Shown here one piece after another: positions 4,713-64,000 of a DNA stretch of 64,000 nucleotides. Numbering within the stretch: position 1 is the first letter of the stretch; each line of letters begins with the position of its first letter. This DNA comes from Phorcus lineatus (lineage: Eukaryota > Mollusca > Gastropoda > Trochida > Trochidae). The notes under the pieces were generated by a model, which saw only the letters and a program-made list of their open reading frames with translations, searched no databases and was not told the origin of the DNA. The stretch is taken from positions 22,702,622 through 22,766,621 of the forward strand of contig OV121093.1 in NCBI GenBank assembly GCA_921293015.1, written 5' to 3'. A program made the translations under genes and the position numbers.

Positions 4713-6312
4713 TTTAGAGAGAGAGAGAGAGATTTTATTCAGCATTGGAGGCCGCGTGGCCCAGAGTACAAATACAAAAATAATGTACAATTTATACTTA
4801 TGTTAATGTACATGAACATGTTGGTGTGCGAGCTTAATTTCATACATACAAATTTCTTTTTAAGTATATAGCAAAACCTTTAAGTACATTTTCATTTTTG
4901 CAAGACAAAAGTTCAACAAACTTTTGCTGCGTTGGAAACTGACAAAATCGATTTGGTATGAGTTTCGTTCTACTATCCCGAAAGAAAGGACAAACAAGAA
5001 CAAAATGAAATTCATCTTCGACAGTTCTTAAGTTACAACGTTCACATAATAATTCAGAATAAGAAGTGTATTTGTTCAAACGCATTTTCTGAATTCTCAA
5101 ATTGTGTGACATGCATCTGAACTTCACAAGTACATTTTTCAAATCCTTATTAATGTCAAAACTTAGATACTTTTCTTGTCCAAATATAGTTTTAAAGGAT
5201 GAATATGTTTTAAGAAATGTTGATGATTCTATTTGCCCATACCAAGATTGGATGTCTAAATCTATGCAAGTTTGTTTGAACAAATTCATGAATTGAGATA
5301 CATTTCCACATTCCTGAAACATCCAGGCATATGAATAACCAGTCTGAAATAGTAACAATCTAACATGCGAAGCCCAGTTTACACTGCCTGCTTCATCCTG
5401 TGCTTTAAGCATGTTACAACAGGCGTGGGGATTTCGTGACGAGTCCATATGAATCAACCTACACCAGTATCTTATACATCGACAAAAATAACGTATCGAG
5501 AGATGGTAGCGCCCCATTTCACCCAGAACCGCTTTTGATGAAGATCTTTTACTTATACCCAGATAGGTTTTGAAGAAATTACTCTGGACTTTTTCCACAC
5601 TTTCTCGAAACTTAAACCCCCATATTTCGCTACCATAACAAGCAATTGGAGAAATCTTTGTATCAAATATAGACAAAATAACATTCATTGAAAGATTTGG
5701 GTAACATTTCATCAACTGGTAAATAGGAAAACATGCTTTAGAGGCTTGGTTAGCAAGGGTTTCACAGGCTGTAGACCAACATAGTCGTGATGAAAATATA
5801 ACTCCTAAATATTTGTAATAAGAAACTGTTTTCAGTTCAATGCCTTTATAGTACCACTTTTCTACCTTCTTGAGTTTTCCACCATTACGAAAAACAATTA
5901 TGTTTGATTTTTCCATATTTACAACCAATCCCCATTTATTGCAGAATTTTTCTAAAACGATCAACTTCCTTTGTAAATCAGCAACGGAATCTGCAACTAA
6001 TACTATATCATCTGCAAAGAGTAGCAGTTTTATGACTTCGATTGGATCATTTACAAAAATGCCTCTAGAGTCGTCATTTTGTAAATCAACAGCCAACTGG
6101 TTGATGAAAAATATGAATAAAAGAGGACTTAACATACAACCTTGTCTAACTCCGCTTGATGTATTGAATATATCGGTGACACAGTTACCGATTTTAACAC
6201 AAGCACAAACATTCTTGTACATACTTTCCAAAATATGATATAGTTTACCATGAATTCCATGTTGTAATAACTGATAAAGCAGTTTACTTCTATCAACAGA
6301 ATCAAATGCCTC
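4713..6312 (-). mobile_element. 5'-truncated Jockey/I-group LINE, (GA)n tail
   Basis: A minus-strand non-LTR element. Its 3' end is a simple (ga)n run at 4715-4732, read as (tc)n on the element strand, after a short 3' UTR. The 5' end is cut within the reverse transcriptase at the AFDSVDR motif near 6312. Beyond that the DNA becomes abruptly GC-rich and unrelated. No target-site duplication was found on comparing the flanks, so either the junctions have decayed or the insertion was endonuclease-independent. Confidence 0.8.
4840..6312 (-). pseudogene. LINE reverse transcriptase C-terminal two thirds
   Basis: An open frame of about 490 LINE-derived codons. It starts at the first catalytic motif (AFDSVDR) and continues through GVRQGCMLSPLLF (RT block 4) and the catalytic FADD box (LLLFADDIVLVAD). 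It has the thumb region and a C-terminal knuckle of the form C-x2-C-x9-H-x4-C (CERCNLRTVEDEFHFVLVC). The endonuclease and N-terminal RT are missing. About 17 codons upstream of AFDSVDR that stay open come from unrelated flanking DNA, so the apparent start is an accident. The frame has stayed open over almost 1.5 kb, which suggests a fairly young insertion. The knuckle with 'EDEFHF' is typical of Jockey/I-superfamily LINEs; the exact clade is not determined. Confidence 0.82.
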
Positions 6313-8110
6313 ACACGTGGTCTGGCCTGGTACGTGCGTCTCGTGCGACGCGTGCACGCAATACTCTCCAACTCTTGTAATTTAAGTGAATATATATTTT
6401 TTTTCTTGTTTATTATTAATTGTTGCTTTGGATTTATAGATAGGGTTTAAATGACATACTTTATTGAGCAATAAAGGGATTCTTAGATCTGAAATCGCAC
6501 ATTGTGTCAGAGCCGGGACAGCACACGTCCTACCTCTCCGCTCGACATCACCAGATCAAGTTTACATACTTTAGATGCTGTTATTGTACTGCCCGGGTTA
6601 TAAATAATCGCTTGCGTTCTGAGATGGCGGTCCGTCTGTTTGCGACAATATAAGGTAAATTGTGTTTCATAAAATTTCATTACTTCCTTTCACCACCCTC
6701 AGCAGTTCTCACCACTCAACTAATTTAACAGTTTAATATGTCGTCAACTAAATGATGTCTTCAATTTCGTGAGACTAAATCTGTGCATAATGACATTATA
6801 TTATATAACTAATATTATCAGGATGTTATTAAATTTAGTAGAGGACCCTTCGATAAGATATTTGATATTTTTTTAATTAAAAGTATTAATTTTTTAAATA
6901 ACCAGCGTTACATTGAAATAATGAGATTTTGTGTTGTAAAACCTGACGAGATCAAAACATGATTATTCAAATAATCATGCTGTGACATTTGAGATGTTTT
7001 ATTTTAATTACTATGAATTGACTGTTGAACTATTCTTAATATTCATATTGACAGAAGCTTACTGTTTTATGTTTTACTTTATGATTGTGCTAGCTAATTC
7101 ATCAAATTTCTTCAACAAGCCAATCATTGCCACTTGAGTGAAACTGTGCATGCTCTGTCAGGAAATGTCGCCACTCATAGATAGGTTCACCGATTGTATA
7201 CATGTGGACATCCTGATCTGGGCTTGCAATCAGTAATATGCACGCTCTACTAAACATTCTCAGCTATAAGACTTAGAGAGCAATTTGTTTGAAAAACCTC
7301 ATGACACGGGATTATCAACGTGACCTTCTGATCACCATGCTTCAATACACGTTGTCAGTCCATAGGAAACAGAGAACGATTAGATTGTGATTTGGCTTAA
7401 AGAAAGAAATGAGTATAACTTAGAAGAAAACTCACTAATAATAAAACCTACTGAAGCATTTTAAAGGGTCATCCTATCTTGTCACAACTTCAGAATAGAT
7501 TAAGCCAATACGGAAACAGGTGTTTTAACAAATATTGTTTTCTTAACTCACCCTTATTAAGATGACTTTACGATTTCTACGCAGAGCATTTTGGAATTTT
7601 CTAGTCTAAAGTATTTAGACGTTGTATTGGCTTACTATAAGATAAATGGAATTTGATTGACAGCCTCACTGCTTTGAAAGCTGAATGGTAAGATATTTTG
7701 TGTGTGAAGTATCAAGTATTGGCTACTAGTGAAATATATGTGACCAGACAAACTGGAACTAATATCCGGATAAAGGAGGTGGTGAGTGAAATTCTGTACC
7801 ATGCGTTGTTTACAGCTAGTGAGATAAGCAAAATCGGGCGCGATTTACCTCCGACTGGGTGACACGCTATACATATGGCTAAATAAACTTTGACAGGTTG
7901 ATTACCTATCTCTAATTAAGGCACGATATGCGAGAACTGCTGTGTTTTACATGCAAATGACCCTTTACAAGATAGTGCATCTGTCCATTAAACATGTTAA
8001 TGTGTAGACGACATACCTGAAGCTTATAGTCGATGAAGTTAAGAGCCACATATACATCTACATATTCATAGTGTGGATATTATTCAGATTCACTGCATTG
8101 GGTTTTCATA
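6313..8110. other. Non-coding spacer with small GC-rich patches
   Basis: Mostly AT-rich. Two GC-rich patches stand out: 6315-6360 (several CG dinucleotides, acgtgcgtctcgtgcgacgc) and about 6505-6655. The second has a TATA-like ttataaataat near 6599, then an ATG-containing stretch of nine codons with a stop, then a donor-like aaggtaaat near 6652. It looks promoter-like but connects to no coding exon I can see. Confidence 0.4.
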
Positions 8111-8219
8111 TTTCTACAAGCGTTTTTGAACCGAGCTTCGTAACTCGAAGAATTCTTAAATCTACGAACATCTTTAAGACAGATCACAGGCTGTCGTAAA
8201 TACCTTACGAACAAGCACG

Positions 8220-8720
8220 ATGGCGATATTCATTGTTTTAAATGAGGAGATAGCTCGTCTACCAAATAAGGAGAGGGTTTATCGCAACCGTACGCGATAT
8301 TTAGAGTTGTTCGACGATCGCGAAGTGCTAAACCGGTACCGACTTTCAAGAAATGGCATAGAACAACTCATTGCAATCGCTACCCCTAAGTTAATAAGGG
8401 AGACCCAGCGTTCTGCCCCCCTGAATCCTGACATACAGGTGCTCGTCACCCTCAGGTATCTGGGTAAGGGGGATTTCCAGTCCGAGTTGGCCGACCTACA
8501 CGGCATTTCACAGCCGAGTGTTTCACGTGCAATAAGTTCCTGTGTGGACGTTTTCACTGGTTTGCATAAAATCAGATTTCCCAAAGGAAATGAGTTGCGT
8601 CAGGTGAGAGCCGGATTTCATGATGTCGCCGGATTCCCCCGTGTGATAGGGGCTGTAGACGGAACCTTGATTCCTATAATACGGCCGTCCGTGGACGAGG
8701 AGGCTTTCGTGTCTCGTAAG
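8220..8720 (+). pseudogene. Harbinger (HARBI1-like) transposase, first exon only
   Basis: ATG at 8220 opens 167 codons before a probable splice donor at 8716-8722 (either ctc|gtaagg or aag|gtctct). Beyond it, seven non-homologous residues run to a stop. The frame shows the family order: an N-terminal helical region (residues 25-60); a helix-turn-helix around ISQPSVSRAI (96-105); RVIGAVDGTLIPI (141-153) with the first catalytic aspartate at D147; then EAFVSRK, which in this family precedes the 'G-x-HS-x-N' block. The second and third acidic residues of the DDE centre would lie in later exons, which are absent between here and the inverted Myb exon. HARBI1-type proteins are usually about 350 aa, so about half is missing. 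The frame itself is uninterrupted. Confidence 0.85.
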
Positions 8721-8744
8721 GTCTCTTTTTGCTATTTGAGTTAA

Positions 8745-27670: not shown

Positions 27671-28650
27671 TGTCCCCCGCCGTTATAAGATATTTGGCAT
27701 AATTAATATTATCGCGTTAACAATGTATTACAGTGGTCAAAGTGTCATGGTGACCATGAAAATGAGGTCAGGGTCACCAATGTCGACTGGCATCTGAGAC
27801 TTCCGCCATTGAAACCTGTCACCAAATATGAACACTCTAGGTCCTAAGCTTTAAAGATACCGCGTTAACAATGTATTACACAGTGGTCAAAGTGTCGTGG
27901 TGACCTTGAAAATGAGGTCAAGGTCATCAAAGTCGACTGGCATCTGAGTCTTCCGCCATTGAAGGCTGTCAACAAATATGAACACTAGGTGCACGTTAAC
28001 AATGTATTAGAAATTGGTCAAAGTGTCGTAGTGACCTTGAAAATGATGTCATGGTCACCAATGTCGATTGGCGTCTGAGTCTTCCTCCATTGAAAGCTTT
28101 CACCAAATATGAACACTCTAGGTGCTAAGCTTCACAAGATATCGCGTTAACAAGAATCCGGACGGACGTAGTGTCGTGGTGACCTTGAAAATGACGTCTA
28201 GGTCACCAAAGTCGACTGGCGACTGAGTCTTTCTCCATTGAAAGCTGTCACCAAATATGAACACTCTAGGTCCTAAGCTTTAAGAGATACCGCGTTAACA
28301 ATGTATTACACAGTGGTCAAAGTGTCGTGGTGACCTTGAAAATGAGGTCAAGGTCATCAAAGTCGACTGGCATCTGAGTCTTCCGCCATTGAAGTCTGTC
28401 AACAAATATGAACACTAGGTGCACGTTAACAATGTATTAGAAATTGGTCAAAGTGTCGTAGTGACCTTGAAAATGATGGCATGGTCACCAAAGTCGACTG
28501 GCGACTGAGTTTTTCTCCATTGAAAGCTGTCACCAAATATGAACACTCTAGATGCTAAGCTTCATGAGTTATCGCGTTAACAAGAATCCGGACGTACGGA
28601 CAGACGCTGCTGAATTCATAGTCCCCCGTTCCGCGTTGCGGCGGGGGACA
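27671..28650 (+). mobile_element. Tandem-core element with inverted ends (Pearl/HINE-like)
   Basis: The 980-bp unit is bounded by tgtcccccgccg (27671-27682) and its exact complement (28639-28650). The core holds six related monomers of about 130-150 bp starting near 27713, 27860, 27991, 28142, 28290 and 28421, each opening with a gcgttaacaa-type block. The 3' end has 'aagaatccggacg.acgg', then a GC hairpin: gtcccccg at 28621-28628 pairs with cgggggac at 28642-28649, with an inner ccgc/gcgg stem. Short tandem monomers between conserved ends plus a 3' hairpin resemble the Pearl elements of bivalves and other Helentron-associated elements. That assignment is inference. No protein is encoded and no target duplication is evident. 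Confidence 0.7.
27713..28570. repeat. Six-monomer array with 430-bp higher-order period
   Basis: Monomers 5 and 6 (28290-28570) are nearly identical to monomers 2 and 3 (27860-28141). The array therefore grew by duplicating a block of three monomers of about 430 bp, not by single-unit slippage. Monomers 2 and 5 are the short type (131 bp). Monomers 1, 3, 4 and 6 are about 148-150 bp. Confidence 0.8.
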
Positions 28651-37500: not shown

Positions 37501-38393
37501 TATCAATTTGACAGCAGAGCGGTACATGATTGGTTCTTTATTAAAAGGATAAATAGTGGTATCCATCTATGGTTAAGTTGTTTTCTCAAGAAGTTCAATA
37601 ATCTAAGTGACAATGGAAACCCAACATGTGACAAGGAATCGACAAATTACTTTTTAGTTAGACTTAAGCAAGTGGACTGGTACACACCGCGTCTTTTCGT
37701 TCAATGACAATTTCATATATGTTCTATAAAAACTAACTTACAAAACATGATAAAAGAATATTTGTCAGGCAGATTAATATCTAACGTCAACATTGTTCTG
37801 TCTGGTTATTATCATGGCCCAATGATAAACAATTTAGAAGTGTGGGTTTCTTCACTGTCACACTGTGTAATGAAAAACTAAATACTGTAATACAAAATAG
37901 ATCTTGACAGTGCTAATGGAATAAACATAAGCACTGCTACAAACACACCACACTGAATAATATCCATGCCGTTATGAACCTTGTGATTGAAATTCAATGT
38001 TTTGAAAAGAGAAATAAAATAGCTGTAGCATAAAACATGAAACGCACAGACTTCAAATTTTCCTTTACCAAACTCCATGCAACATAAATAAACATTTCTA
38101 TTAAGACCCATACTTTATGAGTGGCCTGGTTTTCGCAAAAAAAGATTCTTTGCCAAAGTTAAACGGATTTCCAAAACTTTGATATTTATTGCTACACGTA
38201 GCAATGATTTAAAATGGCTTGACATGAAACAAATTGGTAATGTAATAAAATGGTTACATTGATAGTAAAGTTTCTGTGAATACTCTATTTCATCTGTTCT
38301 TAATGCTTCACAGGCTGTAAAACAAGAAATATGTCTCATTTACAGAGACGAATTAACAGCGTAGAGAGACATAACCTGCTCTTTGATAATCAA
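34588..38393. other. Gene-free spacer before the L1-like element
   Basis: AT-rich, with no recognised coding or repeat content. Confidence 0.5.
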
Positions 38394-38405
38394 ATGGTCG
38401 GTTGA
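38394..38405. repeat. Target-site duplication, left copy
   Basis: atggtcggttga, identical to 45502-45513. Two further leading A residues match but are ambiguous with the poly(A) tail at the right copy. Confidence 0.92.
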
Positions 38406-38629
38406 GAGAAGGTCAAGGTCGCCATGAAGTGTGGACGCAGGTGAAATCGCTCCCGCAATAGTGATGCAGTTTATGTGATTTGATAAGCTTAAATGACAAA
38501 AAGTGAGTAGCAGCATATGCCAAAACAATTGTCTGACTCCCATAGTTTGATTGGTGACCCAGCTTCAACTAAGATATCACACATTTGTCATTAAATCAAG
38601 TGAGGTACATATCGGTGTACACGTCAGCC
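38406..38629 (+). promoter_or_regulatory. 5' UTR / putative internal promoter of the L1-like element
   Basis: 224 nt between the target-site duplication and the ORF1 ATG. It opens gagaaggtcaaggtcgccatg and contains a tcaaggtc half-site-like motif at about 38411-38419. By analogy with known LINEs it should hold the promoter. No TATA-like box is obvious near its start, as expected for an internal promoter. Confidence 0.5.
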
Positions 38630-39436
38630 ATGTCTCAAAGTAAAGTGCGGGAGAGTGGACACTCGACTCGATCAACTCTTAGTCTAGAAGACATTAGAGA
38701 ACTAATACTAGCATCAGAAAGCCGTATCGGTGCTAAGATAGAGAACACAGCTGTCGATTTACAAAAGTCCATCGACAAAGTTGTTCAGGATGTAAACGAG
38801 CTGAAATCGAGAGTGAACGAAGTTGAAGCAATGGCCGACATGAACTCGGACGAGTTAGTTCAACTTAAACGTGGCCTCAAAACTATTGAAGCTGATGTGG
38901 ACCTTAAGGTCGGTATGATACACAGAAATATTATCAATAATGAATTACATGAAAGGAGACAAAACTTATTATTCAATGGAATACCCGAGGACACTGAAGA
39001 AGACACAGAAACGACATTGAAAAACTTTATGAAAACAAGCCTTGGAGTCGCCCAGGAGTATGCCCAGGATATCATGTTCAGAGATGTTCACCGATTACGT
39101 AGACCAAGGTATAGTGTGAGGGAACAGTCAAACCCAAGACCCAACACAATCATTGCATCTTTTGCTAAAATGAAAGACAGAAATAAAATTTTTGAACTTC
39201 GAAAGAAGCTCTACCAGACTGGTATGAACATTCAAACGGATCTCCCACCCTCGATGAAGAAGATTAGAGCCGTTCTTAACAAAAAAGCATATGAAATACG
39301 TCAAAAGGACAATTTGTACACACGGGTAAGACCAAAGGGTATAGACATGGTACTCGAGGTGAAGGGTCCAGACGAGCCAAACACCGCTTGGAGACGAGTA
39401 AGTGTACCTATTCCGGAAGATCTCAAACAATACTGA
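38630..39436 (+). CDS. L1-like ORF1 protein (RNA-binding chaperone)
   Basis: 268 aa from the ATG at 38630 (gccATGtc, a fair initiation context). The same frame is open a further 15 codons upstream but without an ATG. Residues about 20-105 form a long heptad-rich coiled coil (DLQKSIDKVVQDVNELKSRV). Then comes ERRQNLLFNGIPED (108-121), the first strand of the RRM-like domain of L1 ORF1 proteins. The segment MFRDVHRLRRPR and the later IIASFAKMKDRNKIFELRKKL belong to the same domain. The C-terminus (residues about 200-268), with DLPPSMKKIRAVLNKKAYEI, matches the family's C-terminal domain. ORF1 proteins trimerise through the coiled coil and coat the element RNA. The frame is intact and of usual length. 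Confidence 0.9.
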   Translation: MSQSKVRESGHSTRSTLSLEDIRELILASESRIGAKIENTAVDLQKSIDKVVQDVNELKSRVNEVEAMADMNSDELVQLKRGLKTIEADVDLKVGMIHRNIINNELHERRQNLLFNGIPEDTEEDTETTLKNFMKTSLGVAQEYAQDIMFRDVHRLRRPRYSVREQSNPRPNTIIASFAKMKDRNKIFELRKKLYQTGMNIQTDLPPSMKKIRAVLNKKAYEIRQKDNLYTRVRPKGIDMVLEVKGPDEPNTAWRRVSVPIPEDLKQY

Positions 39437-41450
39437 CAAGTATGTATAAATCCTGATATGAATATATAAGGAAAGAACTAAAAAAAACCTTTCAAAGGTA
39501 CAATTCCTGGGTATGAGTTATATAGAAATTATACTACTTGTTCTGGTGATTACGACAATGTAGACAAACAAACAACATGTGTATAGATAAATATAAGTAA
39601 ATGTATATATGAGTTTATATGTAAACGTGTTAGTATGTATGAGAATGTGTACATGTATTGGTGTATATGTATGTGTAGGTGCATATATATATTTACATGT
39701 ATGTATATGTGTGTATGTATGTGGATATGTGTATGTATATGTGTATATATGTATATGTGTTTATACATATATACATATGTATGTATGTGTATGTGTATAT
39801 GTGTGTGCATATGTTTAAATATATGTATATGTGCAGGTGTGTTTATGTACAAGTATGGGTAAGCTTTTGTTGAATGTATGTGTGAGCATGTATGTAAATA
39901 TGTAAATATGTAAGAATGTGGGTATGCATATGTAGGTATATCATGTAACTGTGTGTGTATCTGATCATAGAAAAAAAACATAACAACATTTTAGAATTCT
40001 TATCAATTTGAAGGAAAATCATCTTTCAGTTATGTGGCAACAATTTAGAAATATCATGTTACAAAATGCCACTTAATGATTATATAAATGATACCATAAA
40101 AATCAATACAAATGATAATAATACTATAGGTCTATTATGAAAATATATCAAGTATACACATATAATATTTCAAAAAAGGTTTCAATTAGATTGGACTTTT
40201 TTTTTTCTGTCACCATGACATGCACATGCAAACATGTAATGTCATGTTGTATGTGAACAATTACTACAAATATATAAAAATGATAAAATTTAAATTACGA
40301 AACAACAGCATAATATGGAAATGATTCTAAAAACAATACTTCATTTGATGATGATCGGTATAGTGTTGCATGATATGAAGTTATTTTCAGATTGGACATT
40401 TCAGAACACAATGTTTTTTAGATTTAGAAAATAACTAAGTTAAATTGCCATCCACATGGTACTGTGCCTGTATGTAATGTGTGTAAATGCCTTCTCCCCC
40501 TCTTAAAATTAAAAGAGATCATATAGAAAAGTATTTCATATTACTACAATCAATATGGTAATACATGTTGAATAGAGGTTTGGTATACACCATATGAAGT
40601 GACCAAAACAATTTTGAATGAATGATGTTGCTAATTGGAAATAAACCCACCAAATTATAAATAATATGATTTAAAAATATACATTTATTAAGGGGAGGAG
40701 GGGGTCTTTTGGGGCTATTTTGGTTGTTAAGTGTAAAAAGGTATATCCATTGTTGCTAACTTAAATCCTACTGACTGTGCGCAGTTTGTTATTTTGTTAC
40801 TGGTGCATTCATTACAAAAACAATTGTTAATCTAGACTATGATATTGATACGAAATACTATTATATGGAATTATATTTTGTTTAAAGAATGTACATGAAA
40901 GATATAACCAAATTTTAAAAATCTCTCACAAATTGTGACGATAACAAAGAAAAAAATTAATAATACACACATATTACTATGTTATATACAATTCAAATAC
41001 TTACATCAGTTTTAGACGCATCTAGTAATCCTATTTTGACATCATCCAACATTATCAATTATATAAAGCTAACATGCATAGACACCTTAGGGTACAAGCC
41101 AACAAAAAGAAATCAGGTAACATACATGATTTGAAGCACGGATTGCACGCACCGCACACCTAACATGTACGATAGCTTTGTAGCGCTGCTACGCTGAATC
41201 CAACGCGGCTTAAAATCTTGAGACAATCATCATTACAACATTAACTGCATCACATTGCATAATGTAACTAGTCGAGTCAACTGAATGACTATGGCTATTC
41301 ACTTGTACATATTTACTCTTCACTTTTGTTCACACTTTTTCTTTTTAATATGTTTGTCACTTTCATATCTTCATGTCAATACACAATTCAAACATGCTAC
41401 ATATAAATTTGGACTTAAAAAGATGACTGCAAAATGCAAACAAATTGACA
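39437..41450 (+). other. 2.0-kb inter-ORF spacer of the L1-like element
   Basis: Non-coding and very AT-rich, between ORF1 and ORF2. It contains a tg/ta-rich microsatellite (39590-39960), a G-rich patch ggggaggagggggtcttttgggg (40694-40716), and a GC-richer patch at about 41130-41215 with a gtagcgctgctac hairpin shortly upstream of ORF2. No inserted element with its own ends was recognised inside. Mammalian L1 spacers are tens of bases, so this one is unusually long. Confidence 0.7.
39590..39960. repeat. Compound (TG/TA)n-type microsatellite
   Basis: About 370 bp of alternating gtatatgtatgtgtatatgt-type purine/pyrimidine steps. Long 'open frames' through it on both strands (Tyr/Val/Cys- or His/Ile/Thr-rich) are artefacts of the repeat. 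Confidence 0.85.
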
Positions 41451-44400
41451 ATGGGTGATAATATTAAAATATATTCTTCTAATTGTCAAGGCCTGAATAA
41501 TAGGAAAAAAAGAATAGACGTGTTTCAAAATCTCAAGACCAAAAATGCCAATATCTATTGTCTGCAAGATACTCATTTCACTAAAGATCTAGAAAACTCA
41601 ATCAAAACGGAAATGGAAACTGACCACTGTTGGTTTAGTTCATATAAAAGTAATGCAAGAGGTGTTGCGATTATATTCGAAAACAACTTTGAATTTAAAC
41701 TCTTACAGGAAATTCAGGACAATGAAACCGGGAATTTTCTCGCGCTTAAGATAGAAATTAGTACCGGAAAAACATTGACTTTAATCTCAGTATACGGACC
41801 AAATGGTGACTCTCCAAAGTTCTATGAAGAAATAATACAAATTATAAAAGAGTTTAATTCAGACCACTTTTCTATCTGCGGAGATTGGAATTTAGTCCAA
41901 AACCCAGAAATTGATTTGTATAATTACAAACATGTAAATAATCCTGAAGCGAGAGATGTTGTTCTAGAATTTATAGAGGAGGAAAACCTCATTGATCCTT
42001 GGAGAGAATTTAACAAAAATTGTAAACGTTTCACTTGGAGGAAATCTAAACCAATTAAGCAGGCTAGACTTGATTTCTTTCTTCTATCCAGAGATTTAGA
42101 AAATTCAATTGTTAAGGCAGGTATAGACCCGGCATATCGATCAGACCATTCAGCAATCTGGCTTACATTGAAAATAAGTGATATTGAAAGAGGTAAAGGT
42201 TTTTGGAAATTTAATAATTCATTGTTACACGACGAAATTTATGTGAAGCATATAAAAGATGTGATCAAATCAACAACTGATCAATATAAAATAGGCCAAT
42301 ATGAAGATGGTAGTATAAAATTAAATATTGATGACCAACTCTTTTTTGAAACTTTGCTTCTAATGATCAGAGGTTTTACTATAAAATATTCTTCCGAAAA
42401 GAAGAAATCTCGAGAAAAAGAAGAACAATTACTCCGTGATGAAATAGAGAAAATGCATAATGACTTAGATAAAACAGAAAATATCAAGACTAAGGAAGAG
42501 TTGTCTGAAAATCTTAAACTAGCCAATGACAGACTAGAAACTATTAATAATATTAAAACTGAAGGAATAATACTTCGATCAAAATCCAACTGGAAGGAAA
42601 AAGGTGAGAAACCAACAAAATACTTTTTGTCATTAGAAAATAGAAACTTTCTCAATAAAGCAATATGTAAATTGGAAAAAAAGGATGGAACTGTAGCAAC
42701 GAAAACTAAAGATATCTTACTCGAGACGAAAACTTTCTATAAGAATCTGTATACTAAACAAACTTGTAGAGATGTCGATTTGCAAAATATGTTTCAGAAA
42801 CTAAATATTCCAAAACTAACAGAATCACAAAAAATAGATTTGGAAGGAGAGCTGAAATATGAAGAAGTATTAAATACATTGAAAAAAATGAAAAATGAAA
42901 AAAGTCCAGGTCCATCAGGATTTACAGTTGAGTTTTATAAGTTTTTTTGGCACGATTTGAACAGATATCTTCTACGCTCATTAAATTACGGCTTCCGTAC
43001 AGGAGAATTATCTGTAAGCCAGAAACAGGGTTTGATAACTTGTATACCAAAAGCTAACAAAGCTAAACATCACTTGAAAAATTGGAGACCTATATCACTT
43101 TTAAATGTTTCATATAAAATTGCATCAGCAACCATTGCTAATCGAATCAAGTCAGTTTTACCAGACATAATCAATGAAGATCAGAAGGGATTCATACCAA
43201 AGAGATATATTGGTGAATGTACGAGATTGATTTACGACATCATTGACTATTCTGAATGTATGGAAATACCGGGTCTATTGGTTTTTATAGACTTTGAAAA
43301 AGCTTTCGATTCGGTAGATTGGAGTTTCATTCAAAAGGTTCTGGTGTATTTTAATTTTGGGTCATCAATTATAAAATGGATTAACACATTCTATAAAGAT
43401 ATAAAGTCAAGCGTTCTCGTTAATGGCTTCGGCTCTAGCTTTTTCGAATTATCAAGGGGGTGCAGGCAAGGTGATCCAATTTCTCCTTATATTTTCATCT
43501 TATGTGCAGAAATACTTAGCATTATGCTTAGAAATAACCAAAAGATAAAGGGCATAAAGATTGGTGAAGTTGAATATCTTACATCTCAATTTGCTGATGA
43601 TACTACCCTCATATTGGACGGAACCGAAAAAAGTCTACAAAATGCCCTGCAAACCCTAAAATTGTATTCAGAATTCTCAGGTCTTAAGATAAACCCTTCA
43701 AAAACACAAGTGATGTGGATAGGGTCAAAAAGGTATGAAAAACGCTCTCTCTGTGATAATTGGAATTTAGACTGGTCACAAACTTCTTTCAAAATCTTAG
43801 GAATAACATTCACACATAATTTGGCAGAAATGGTTGAAAGAAACTACAAAGATAAACTAAAGAAAATAAAAATTGAAATGAACATGTGGCTTGCACGTGA
43901 TTTAACACCACTAGGCAGGAACACTGTGTTGAAGAGCCTATTGCTCCCAAAACTTAATCACCTTTTTTCATCATTACCTAATCCTAGCGACGAAATTATA
44001 AATGAACTAAATAGACTATGTTATAAATTCATATGGAAAAATAAACCAGATAAGATAAAAAGAAGTGTTTTGACTAACACATTTGAAAAGGGAGGTATCA
44101 GAGCGCCTAACATTAAGAACATCATCATGTCACAGAAACTTTCATGGATAAGACGGCTGCATAACTCAGCAAGTAATTGTCAAAGAAACTTGTTCAATAA
44201 AAATATCTCAACTAACCTATCAAATATGATACAAAAAAGTGAATCTTATATCAGTGAAACGGTTATGACAGTGAGGACAAATGCCTTTTGGAGAGATGTA
44301 CTAAAAGCCTGGGGGAAATTCTTAACAGTTAAAGGAAAGAAAACAAAAACTGCTAATGATATACTAACCCAACCGCTGTGGCATAATGCTAATATTACTG

Positions 44401-45290
44401 TAAACGGAAAATCCATACACGTTGAAAGACTGGAAAGTGGAGGTGTAAAGTATGTTAACGATCTTATCGACTCAAAAGGAAAGTACCTTGATTTTGATAC
44501 TTTCATAAAAAAGTTTAACGTTAAGACAAATTTTCTTCAATACGCAGGTATCATCGCAGCAGTAAAACAATACACAAAATCACAAAATATTGTTATAAAC
44601 TGTAAGCAGCCATATCCTATATTACCATATTTCCTTGAAAATTTAATAGGGAATAAAACTGGATGTAGGGAATTTTACGATATATTTCAACTTGAAAACA
44701 TAAACGACACAAAATTAAGATACAAAATAAAGTGGGAAAAAGACCTAGACTGTACTATTACAGAAGATAAATGGAAATTAATACACCAATCCCCTCACAA
44801 ATGCCATTCAGCTAGTAACCATATATGGTTCCAATACCGTTTGATTCACAGAATCCTACCTACAAATACTTTATTGACAAAAATGGGTTATAAAGACAAT
44901 GAAAAATGCGACTTGTGTGGTGAAAGCGCTGAAACATTGCTCCATTTGTTTTATGATTGCGAAATCTCGCAAAATATATGGTTAGAAATGACAAATTGGA
45001 TCGAATCAAAAACACAGTGTAAATTAAACTTATCGAAACAAACTGCCATCTTCGGATACCCACAACACAGAAATAATGTTCTAAATCTGATTCTGATAAT
45101 AATAAAATACAATATCTTTAAATCAAAACAACAAAATAAACTACCAAGCATCCCATACATTAAAAATGACATTCGCAATATATATAACATAGACAAATAT
45201 TCTGCATATACTCAATGTAGTTATTCAAAATTCATGAAATTCTGGTCATCATGTCACAATTTGTTCTCGTTTAAGCGATTTTTTCAATAA
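41451..45290 (+). CDS. L1-like ORF2: endonuclease and reverse transcriptase
   Basis: 1279 aa from the ATG at 41451; the frame is open two codons upstream without an ATG. Residues 1-240 are an AP-type endonuclease: SSNCQG (N11), LQDTH (D40, where Glu is usual), VYGPN (Y115), GDWN (D145, N147), RLDF (D208) and SDH (231-233). Residues about 310-370 are a charged coiled-coil linker. The reverse transcriptase runs from about 480 to 800 with SPGPSGF, NWRPISLLN, the catalytic FIDFEKAFDSVDW (D614), GCRQGDPISPYIF and FADD (714-717). The C-terminus has a knuckle C1153-x2-C1156-x8-H1165-x4-C1170. The protein would nick target DNA and prime reverse transcription of the element RNA. All frames and the major catalytic residues are present; the Glu-to-Asp change is conservative. 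Confidence 0.94.
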   Translation: MGDNIKIYSSNCQGLNNRKKRIDVFQNLKTKNANIYCLQDTHFTKDLENSIKTEMETDHCWFSSYKSNARGVAIIFENNFEFKLLQEIQDNETGNFLALKIEISTGKTLTLISVYGPNGDSPKFYEEIIQIIKEFNSDHFSICGDWNLVQNPEIDLYNYKHVNNPEARDVVLEFIEEENLIDPWREFNKNCKRFTWRKSKPIKQARLDFFLLSRDLENSIVKAGIDPAYRSDHSAIWLTLKISDIERGKGFWKFNNSLLHDEIYVKHIKDVIKSTTDQYKIGQYEDGSIKLNIDDQLFFETLLLMIRGFTIKYSSEKKKSREKEEQLLRDEIEKMHNDLDKTENIKTKEELSENLKLANDRLETINNIKTEGIILRSKSNWKEKGEKPTKYFLSLENRNFLNKAICKLEKKDGTVATKTKDILLETKTFYKNLYTKQTCRDVDLQNMFQKLNIPKLTESQKIDLEGELKYEEVLNTLKKMKNEKSPGPSGFTVEFYKFFWHDLNRYLLRSLNYGFRTGELSVSQKQGLITCIPKANKAKHHLKNWRPISLLNVSYKIASATIANRIKSVLPDIINEDQKGFIPKRYIGECTRLIYDIIDYSECMEIPGLLVFIDFEKAFDSVDWSFIQKVLVYFNFGSSIIKWINTFYKDIKSSVLVNGFGSSFFELSRGCRQGDPISPYIFILCAEILSIMLRNNQKIKGIKIGEVEYLTSQFADDTTLILDGTEKSLQNALQTLKLYSEFSGLKINPSKTQVMWIGSKRYEKRSLCDNWNLDWSQTSFKILGITFTHNLAEMVERNYKDKLKKIKIEMNMWLARDLTPLGRNTVLKSLLLPKLNHLFSSLPNPSDEIINELNRLCYKFIWKNKPDKIKRSVLTNTFEKGGIRAPNIKNIIMSQKLSWIRRLHNSASNCQRNLFNKNISTNLSNMIQKSESYISETVMTVRTNAFWRDVLKAWGKFLTVKGKKTKTANDILTQPLWHNANITVNGKSIHVERLESGGVKYVNDLIDSKGKYLDFDTFIKKFNVKTNFLQYAGIIAAVKQYTKSQNIVINCKQPYPILPYFLENLIGNKTGCREFYDIFQLENINDTKLRYKIKWEKDLDCTITEDKWKLIHQSPHKCHSASNHIWFQYRLIHRILPTNTLLTKMGYKDNEKCDLCGESAETLLHLFYDCEISQNIWLEMTNWIESKTQCKLNLSKQTAIFGYPQHRNNVLNLILIIIKYNIFKSKQQNKLPSIPYIKNDIRNIYNIDKYSAYTQCSYSKFMKFWSSCHNLFSFKRFFQ

Positions 45291-45501
45291 GACATCATTA
45301 TGAAAAAAGTATCATGTACATCCACAGATTATAATTCCAATCAATGAATAATTTGGGGTTTTTTTTGTAATTCAAATACATTCTGTCCATTTAATTTGTT
45401 TGTCCATTATTATGATTGAAATGTCTGTTCTCTATTGGTATGCATGTTTTGAATTTGTATATACATGAACAAAAATGAATAAAGTTATAAAAAAAAAAAA
45501 A
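45291..45501 (+). other. 3' UTR and poly(A) tail of the L1-like element
   Basis: 211 nt after the ORF2 stop, with an AATAAA signal at 45478-45483 followed 5 nt later by a 14-A run (45489-45502). The last A overlaps the target-site duplication. A T-rich run lies at 45359-45366. Confidence 0.85.
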
Positions 45502-45513
45502 ATGGTCGGTTGA
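45502..45513. repeat. Target-site duplication, right copy
   Basis: atggtcggttga, an exact match to 38394-38405, directly after the poly(A) tail. Confidence 0.92.
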
Positions 45514-52969: not shown

Positions 52970-53616
52970 CAACCTCTGTTATAAAACGAACGTTTTTCGG
53001 TTAAGATAAGTATAACCAGATTTGATGGGAGCAAAGTTCGTTGTGCAATGAGCGACGCCGTTTCAAAAGTTATCATTTAAATCGTCCAAATTATTTCCGT
53101 AACCTTTCCAAAAGTTAGACTTAAGTCGAATATGCACTTTGAGTCTTCTTTACAGAACACATTTAGCGACTGCATCATTGCATAGGCCTGTGTGACAACA
53201 AATATGTTATCCATGCATTCGGTGTTTCCATTGGCTGAAATATTGCAAGGTAGTTTAAGTTTCAATAGTGTGCCTCTTGAAAGATAAGTTAAGATAAGTA
53301 TAACCAGATGTGATGGGAGCAAAGTTCGTTGTGCAATGAGCGACGCCGTTTCAAAAGTTATCATTTAAATCGTCCAAATTATTTCCGTAACCTTTCCAAA
53401 AGTTAAGACTTAATTCGAATATGCACTTTGAATCTTCTTTACAGAAAACATTTAGCGACTGCATCATTGCATAGGCCTGTGTGACAACAAATATGTTATC
53501 CATGCATTCGGTGTTTCCATTGGCTGAAATATTGCAAGGTAGTTTAAGTTTCAATATTGTGCCGCTTGAGGAAAAAGCCGAAAGTTCGATTAGAGCTCTA
53601 ATTATAACAGAGGTTG
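52970..53616. mobile_element. 647-bp MITE, TA target, internal 288-bp duplication
   Basis: Inverted ends caacctctgttataa (52970-52984) and the complement (53602-53616) are bounded by TA at 52968-52969 and 53617-53618, consistent with a Tc1/mariner-type element. Further in, both arms keep a cgaac-ttt-cgg-like block. There is no coding capacity. The interior is almost wholly a direct tandem repeat. Confidence 0.75.
53001..53575. repeat. Tandem duplication, two 288-bp units
   Basis: 53001-53288 and 53289-53575 are nearly identical (a handful of substitutions and one or two indels). Similar short frames therefore occur twice on the minus strand (MITFETASLIAQRTLLPS...). They are repeat shadows, not genes. 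Confidence 0.88.
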
Positions 53617-62271: not shown

Positions 62272-63206
62272 CACTCATTTAAGCAATGAGGTTGAGTGCT
62301 TGTTTTGTGCTCCGAAATTCAGTAACATCACAGAGATCAATGTTCTGCCTCCTCTATTCTTGTCGAGTGACCACGTTGTTTCACGTCAGGTCACGGCACC
62401 CAGTAGTATTTGGGACGTTCATTCACGTCAACCGCCTCTACAGCTTCAGGTTCATACAGTTCAACCAATTCAATTAGCACGCCTTTTCATGATGTACAGA
62501 CACAGCAGTCGGCTAATATTATCGGTGTTACTACGATCCTATTTAGACCGCAGGTGAAAAAATATGAACCCCATTGAGCACAAAAGGCTGTCGCATAACG
62601 TGCGCTTGGTTGACTGTGTGGCCGTTGGGTCCATTTTGTCAGAAGAACTCTAGGAAACACCAAAATGCTCAGAATGGTAGCATGAGATAAGAAGTTGTAA
62701 TCGCAATACTTAGATGTAATGATATCAGGATTAAAAGTTGAAATTGCATGCTATTGGCTGTGTTTGTGAATATTTATTTCACAGTGTTCTCAATCATCTT
62801 ATAACTGCAGTAACAGGCTTTCTATGATGATATTTTATGACCATCCAATTTAAATAAAGGGGAGCATTTATGTCTTTGATGGAGCGAATGAAAATTTCAA
62901 TGATATTGATGGAATTAAAAGTAAGCTTAAGAGGACTGTAAACCCGTATATAAAAATATAATAACACCGAAATGTATGCAATTGTGGTCATTATGAACAA
63001 CCAATTAAACACATGAGAATTTTCACGTTTTCCTTTAAACTTGTGCAGACAATTAATGTATTAGGAAAATGAAATTGACCACGTGCCACACAGATGGATT
63101 CGAGATATTGTGTTCAGTTTTAGGCAGTGATTTTCCATTGCATGTTACACTTTTTTTTATTTTATGTGTATTTCAGAATTGGAACAAGGCTGCAATATTT
63201 TATGCA
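62272..63206. other. Spacer, nothing recognised
   Basis: Overlapping short frames at 62286-62557 show no family match. Confidence 0.45.
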
Positions 63207-64000
63207 ATAATATTAAGTATATTAAATTTGATACATGAAAACCAAACTGACTTATTTCCTGAAAGTTGTTTAGCAGACAACTTAAAATTAATGTATGATA
63301 TCCTAGAAAGTAAATTAGAAAATAAAAAAGGTATGTTACTGTCAATAGACTTTGAAAATGCCTTTGACTCTGTATAAAACAGTTCATATTAAAAGTTTTG
63401 GAAAGATTCGGTTTTGCACCTCATATGTTAAAGTGCGTACCTATTTTGATTCAAAACGCAACAGCATGTGTTATACAAAATGGTCATCTTTCTTCATTTT
63501 TTGATAATGGTAGAGGCCGTAGACAAGGGGGCTCCATCTCTCCATATCTGTTTCTCTTTGTTGCAGAAATACTGGTCATTATGCTTAGAACTAATACCAA
63601 GATCAAAGGCATATATCTAAAACATACAGAGCAGAAATTAGGACAGTTTGCTGATGATACACAACTCTTTTTAGATGGCTCATAAGAAAGCTTAAATCTG
63701 CCCAAGAGACTTTCGATAAACGTCATCTGACATTAATTGGAAAAATAACAGTGATAAAAACTTTGGCTTTATCTACACTTGTTCACATTTTCTCTGCTTT
63801 ACCTTTACCACCTTAAGAGTTTGATGACAGTTAAATGCCATAATCTTCAGTTTTATTTGGAACTCTAAACCAGATAAAATCACAAGAATTTGACAAAATG
63901 TTATGAAAAAGGCGGTTTGAGGAAGGTATAAATTCATTTATTTCTGCGCTTATGCTTAACACCATTGAAATAAACATGAACAAAAATTTATATAACAGCT
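63207..64000 (+). pseudogene. L1-like ORF2 reverse transcriptase fragment, continues past window
   Basis: In order: LIHENQTDLFPESCLADNLK (aligned to IINEDQKGFIPKRYIGECTR of the intact ORF2); MLLSIDFENAFDSV with the first catalytic Asp; a stop; then VLERFGFAPHMLKC, GRGRRQGGSISPYLFLFVAE and QFADDTQLFLDGS with the FADD box; another stop; then a jump of roughly 90 residues to RHLTLIGKITVIKTLALSTL and HIFSALPLPP (aligned to RDLTPLGRNTVLKSLLLPKL), and more scraps to the window end. Stops, frame changes and an internal deletion show an old copy. It belongs to the same broad clade as the 38.4-45.5 kb element. Confidence 0.82.

Follow-up and report, generated by a model that had tools for sequence, protein, structure and literature searches.

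Is the 7-kb unit at this locus a complete retrotransposon, and can it still move? The analysis covered the window, that is, the whole 64-kb stretch of DNA within which the unit lies. The best-supported answer to the first part is that an L1-superfamily (L1/Tx1-type) non-LTR retrotransposon inserted here at full length, probably recently, a reading to which we assign a probability of about 0.9. The general appearance of the DNA suggests an animal host, perhaps a mollusc. The element is an ordinary, well-preserved kind of LINE, and its one odd feature is a long spacer between its two genes. This long gap leaves its ability to still jump in question.

Boundaries and layout of the element

Two direct repeats, identical at 14 of 14 positions and with zero extension on either side, enclose an insert of 7,094 bp (38406-45499), or 7,108 bp when one repeat copy is included. 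The insert reads, in order, as a 5′ UTR, ORF1, a spacer, ORF2, a short 3′ UTR with a polyadenylation signal and an A14 run. Its features are as follows:

38392..38405, + strand: 5′ target-site duplication, AAATGGTCGGTTGA (repeat search and identity check)
38406..38629, + strand: 5′ UTR, 224 bp, GC 42%, 5 ATGs; putative 5′ end, from a single copy
38630..39436, + strand: ORF1, 268 aa, free of internal stops and of cysteine (ORF calling)
39437..41450, + strand: non-coding ORF1-ORF2 spacer, 2,014 bp, 93 ATGs, GC 29%, A/T 1.08
39575..39939, + strand: degenerate TATG/TGTA-rich tract, repeat family D1 (Tandem Repeats Finder rows at 39635-39840)
40188..40397, - strand: possible nested 192-bp antisense retroposed piece, with 9-bp repeats AGATTGGAC and a T-run
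41285..41458, + strand: predicted 57-codon spacer ORF, overlapping the ORF2 start by 8 nt
41451..45290, + strand: ORF2, 1,279 aa, free of internal stops; APE-type endonuclease, reverse transcriptase, zf-RVT
41568..41570, + strand: Asp40 codon in LQDTH, at the catalytic Glu position of human L1 and of the relatives L001 and L004 (see below)
45291..45488, + strand: 3′ UTR, AATAAA at 45478-45483
45489..45502, + strand: A14 run, its last three A's possibly part of the target-site duplication
45500..45513, + strand: 3′ target-site duplication, AAATGGTCGGTTGA

Because the first three A's of the right-hand repeat may belong to the A-tail, only 11 bp of the duplication are certain (TGGTCGGTTGA, 38395-38405), a match with a chance of 1e-7 per position given the base composition. 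The 14-mer is absent elsewhere in the 64-kb window, even with up to two mismatches allowed. The first-pass annotation had described a complete L1/Tx1-like LINE with a perfect target-site duplication, a 12-14 bp identical repeat around a 7.1-kb insert, and a poly(A) signal and tail. These descriptions hold: the repeats frame the full unit with its two ORFs, and the signal and the A14 run are both in place at its 3′ end.

Both hallmarks of target-primed reverse transcription, the target-site duplication and the 3′ A tail, are present. An A tail followed by the duplication, with another copy of it before the 5′ UTR, is the expected product of this process. Going by established LINE biology, transcription from an internal 5′ promoter would give an mRNA that is translated into ORF1p, an RNA-binding protein, and ORF2p. 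At the target site ORF2p would nick the bottom strand, at about 5′-CCATTT/GATTATC, and prime reverse transcription on the A tail; a second, staggered nick would then give rise to the 14-bp duplication. The L1 endonuclease site consensus is T-rich/A, which the implied nick fits partially. Site-specific insertion into an RNA gene was also considered and rejected, as neither an Rfam family at gathering score nor a tRNA (ARAGORN, bacterial code) turned up in the window.

Coding capacity and classification

The two ORFs are uninterrupted, as first annotated (268 and 1279 codons); when the element was dinucleotide-shuffled 100 times, the longest open frame to arise had 179 codons. ORF2p residues 4-891 align to human LINE-1 ORF2p from the endonuclease through the reverse transcriptase (E 1e-94, 321 bits), whereas R2 proteins score 99 bits or less; among elements with solved structures, the reverse transcriptase is thus closest to that of L1. 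Three Pfam families match ORF2 above cut-off (RVT_1, 2.7e-37; zf-RVT, 2.6e-9; Exo_endo_phos_2, 7e-7), and Exo_endo_phos falls under it (4.5e-4). The N-terminal APE-type endonuclease (residues 4-242) matches L1 endonuclease structures, and the C-terminal zf-RVT region carries a Cys/His motif, CX2CX8HX4C (CDLCGESAETLLHLFYDC, at residue 1153). Together with the bicistronic layout, the polyadenylation signal, the A tail and the duplication around the unit, this L1-like ORF2p supports the LINE reading.

The claim that the catalytic motifs are present stands with one exception. The reverse transcriptase motif FADD (714-717) aligns with its human counterpart, and N11, D145, N147, D208, D232 and H233 line up with human L1 endonuclease residues; we take all of these to be catalytic. 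Endonuclease residue 40, however, is Asp (LQDTH), at a position where all three comparators, human L1, L001 and L004, carry Glu (LQET in the latter two, against LQDT here). LQDTH may also occur in animal L1/Tx1-like proteins. Asp40 could be typical of the family or a sign of damage; the first-pass annotation mentions neither this residue nor the long spacer. An AF2 model of the endonuclease with one relative was weak (pLDDT 53).

ORF1 encodes a probable coiled coil followed by a putative RRM-like region. It has no Pfam match above cut-off (eight lie below) and no PDB match under E 0.15, and a single-sequence AF2 model of it was weak (pLDDT 57). It does show weak similarity to the ORF1 of L004, 23% over 225 aa (E 5e-7 in a single-pair comparison, partly across coiled coil).

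Relatives outside the window

Two relatives were found outside the window. L001 (contig DIYS01000092.1) and L004 (on another contig) both belong to a metagenome-assembled genome labelled 'Saccharicrinis sp. UBA6048' (G001), and their contigs are likely eukaryotic contamination of this bacterial record. The ORF2 of L001 is 36% identical to that described here and lies downstream of the end of an ORF1, which has a Baculo_FP_2nd match below cut-off. The ORF2 of L004 is 31% identical and is preceded by a complete ORF1, longer at both ends than its counterpart here. In both relatives ORF2 begins with the endonuclease.

An ORF2 search of G001 returned two contigs, L003 and L004, of which L003 fits the L001 contig by position. 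Searches with ORF2, or its first 811 aa, across 395, 393 and 395 genomes of the same phylum, order and class, which are overlapping draws, gave one positive each, G001 itself. Among genome contigs, ORF2 alone gave no match, and alignment A1 retrieved L001. Single-sequence searches of viral contigs with ORF1 and ORF2 yielded no confirmed relative. Alignments A1, A3 and A2 retrieved from the viral contigs only L002, 28% identical over 54 residues and tentatively read as a reverse transcriptase of bacterial or phage origin. ORF2 matched one phage record, annotated as exodeoxyribonuclease III, and three plasmid records at 24-25%; the viral, phage and plasmid collections held no LINE relative.

Age of the copy

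The first-pass annotation regarded the copy as a candidate recent or active source copy, and the identical duplication and two intact ORFs suggest that it is probably recent. Given the codons present, a random substitution creates a stop in 5.65% of cases. The chance of escaping any disabling change drops to 5% at a divergence of 1.1% if only substitutions are counted, and at 0.4% with an indel/substitution ratio of 0.1. Provided that drift has been neutral since insertion, intact ORFs therefore imply a divergence below about 0.4-1.1%, and the copy is probably young. These bounds are soft, since the copy was picked for its intactness. Full length, family identity and recency are all read from this single copy. 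As judged from its sequence, it is most likely a young copy whose coding capacity is intact, with present mobility as a candidate property.

The ORF1-ORF2 spacer and present activity

Beyond its length, the spacer is remarkable for its ATGs: base composition predicts 40.5 and there are 93, including 29 in 39687-39936, inside the TATG tract. It is stop-rich, and the longest frames without a stop, of 91 codons on the + strand and 146 on the - strand, both lie in the TATG-rich tract. How ORF2 is translated past such a 2-kb ATG-dense stretch is left unexplained by the best explanation of the element. The long spacer may be a family trait or local damage; among the papers listed by searches bearing on ORF1-ORF2 spacers, no title or abstract opening describes one of this length.

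Removal of the spacer by splicing was considered and is unsupported. Sites were scored with an approximate matrix of splice-site frequencies, under which 3′ sites scoring at least 4 occur about 1.0 times per kb in 100-38000. Good-looking 5′ sites exist in ORF1 (10.5 at 39326) and in the 5′ UTR (9.6 at 38600), and 40900-41450, ahead of ORF2, contains no good 3′ site (best score, -1.6). It is only the 3′ side that argues against splicing.

One possible, though not favored, explanation, put forward by the first-pass annotation as a candidate, is that this is a currently active source copy; all parts would then function, and its family would normally have both a long spacer and Asp40. The intact ORFs, the identical duplication, AATAAA, the A tail and a strong Kozak-like context at the ORF2 start (ACAATGG) agree with this, and the spacer as well as Asp40 might be typical of the lineage. 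Against it, the 93 ATGs ahead of ORF2 would hinder scanning or reinitiation, and the Glu shared by the three comparators at residue 40 sets this copy apart.

A comparably tentative explanation is that the copy inserted intact and its spacer later expanded in place, through nested insertions and the tandem tract, so that ORF2 is unexpressed and the copy stalled. The spacers of L001 and L004 measure 195 and 220 bp, are pyrimidine-rich and contain one ATG each (about 3 expected); the spacer described here is about ten times longer. These relatives are, however, distant (31-36%). The list above also includes a candidate nested insertion, framed by 9-bp repeats at 40188-40196 and 40389-40397 with a T-run from 40197. 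Such a pair arises in 10 of 500 shuffles, a weak signature, and together with the TATG tract it would fit expansion, but the possible insertion accounts for only 192 of the 2,014 bp, about a tenth of the spacer.

Composition is indecisive on whether the spacer derives from host or element. Its A/T ratio of 1.08 is nearer that of the host (about 1.0) than those of ORF1 (1.72) and ORF2 (1.41), as later expansion would predict. Without the TATG tract, however, the ratio is 1.16, equal to the highest value among 222 host stretches (0.81-1.16), which fails to single out host DNA, and the GC content of 29% lies under that of both the host (34-35%) and ORF2 (32%). Nor are there inverted repeats with arms of at least 14 framing the spacer, or matches to it in the rest of the window under low-complexity masking.

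A further proposal, which we consider rather doubtful, is that a live LINE lineage carries the 2-kb spacer, dense in ATGs, as a fixed trait and expresses its ORF2 without termination-reinitiation from ORF1. Were this so, an internal spacer promoter, an IRES or a separate mRNA could each provide the route to ORF2; this choice of routes shares the doubt attached to the proposal. A family-wide spacer of this kind would constitute natural bicistronic LINE expression outside the reinitiation model of human L1 (PMC5972666).

Two remaining explanations fare much worse. The long non-coding stretch between the ORFs might suggest that they stem from different elements or from an assembly misjoin, but this is very improbable: a single identical duplication encloses both ORFs with the A tail of the element at its 3′ end, and ORF1 weakly resembles that of L004, which itself sits upstream of a related ORF2. 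Least probable of all is a LINE-derived domesticated host gene, for which the long intact ORFs might speak, since the duplication, the A tail and the adjoining intact ORF1 mark a fresh insertion.

Other features of the window

A tblastn search of the window with ORF1 and ORF2 (E 1e-3), which LINEs of other clades could escape, found only two other LINE pieces. The first-pass annotation had described the LINE copies here as mostly broken and truncated. At 63180-63700 (+ strand) lies a decayed L1/Tx1-like reverse transcriptase fragment, broken by stops, which shares 50% identity with the intact ORF2 across about 100 aa. The piece at 4843-6381 (- strand) belongs to another family and is indeed 5′-truncated, but it still holds a 513-codon open frame (RVT_1, 3.6e-23). 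Although it begins inside the reverse transcriptase, its remainder is open, so this LINE may be young too.

A 188-codon open frame at 8178-8741 (+ strand) has a match below cut-off to HTH_Tnp_4, a helix-turn-helix of DDE transposases (E 2e-5). Two tandem arrays are also present, one at 27741-28598 (430-bp unit, 2.0 copies, 93% matches; alternatively a unit of 131 or 148 bp) and one at 53000-53569 (289-bp unit, 2.0 copies, 97% matches).

Comparison with known systems

Human LINE-1 (ORF2p structures PDB 8uw3, 9k6g and others) is one close counterpart. It shares with the present element the two ORFs, the A tail and the target-site duplication, and its ORF2 likewise combines an APE endonuclease, a reverse transcriptase and a C-terminal Cys-rich region. 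The two differ in that human LINE-1 has Glu in place of Asp40, and the C-terminus described here is of the zf-RVT type. The UTRs of this element are also shorter than those of human L1. Another difference concerns the spacer, 63 nt in human L1, for whose ORF2 termination-reinitiation has been proposed (PMC5972666), against 2,014 bp here. Both elements have an A-rich sense strand; A-richness of L1 is described in mammals and a lizard, with a weaker bias in frog and hardly any in fish (PMC7140322).

L1/Tx1-type LINEs are already known as widespread, and intact young copies are useful material for work on retrotransposition in animals other than mammals. In molluscs, transcription of an RTE LINE whose ORF is intact is described for octopus (PMC9115989), and in the snails studied the L1 superfamily is represented by Tx1 (PMC11203168). 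L1-Tx1 elements are reported from 35 mollusc species, with curated bivalve L1-superfamily consensus sequences averaging 5,851 bp, LINE consensus lengths overall spanning 1,786-9,087 bp, and reverse transcriptase and endonuclease kept in 740 of 810 curated bivalve LINE families (PMC10294476). By their description, these mollusc L1-Tx1 elements are, like the one described here, L1-superfamily LINEs with both a reverse transcriptase and an endonuclease (PMC10294476).
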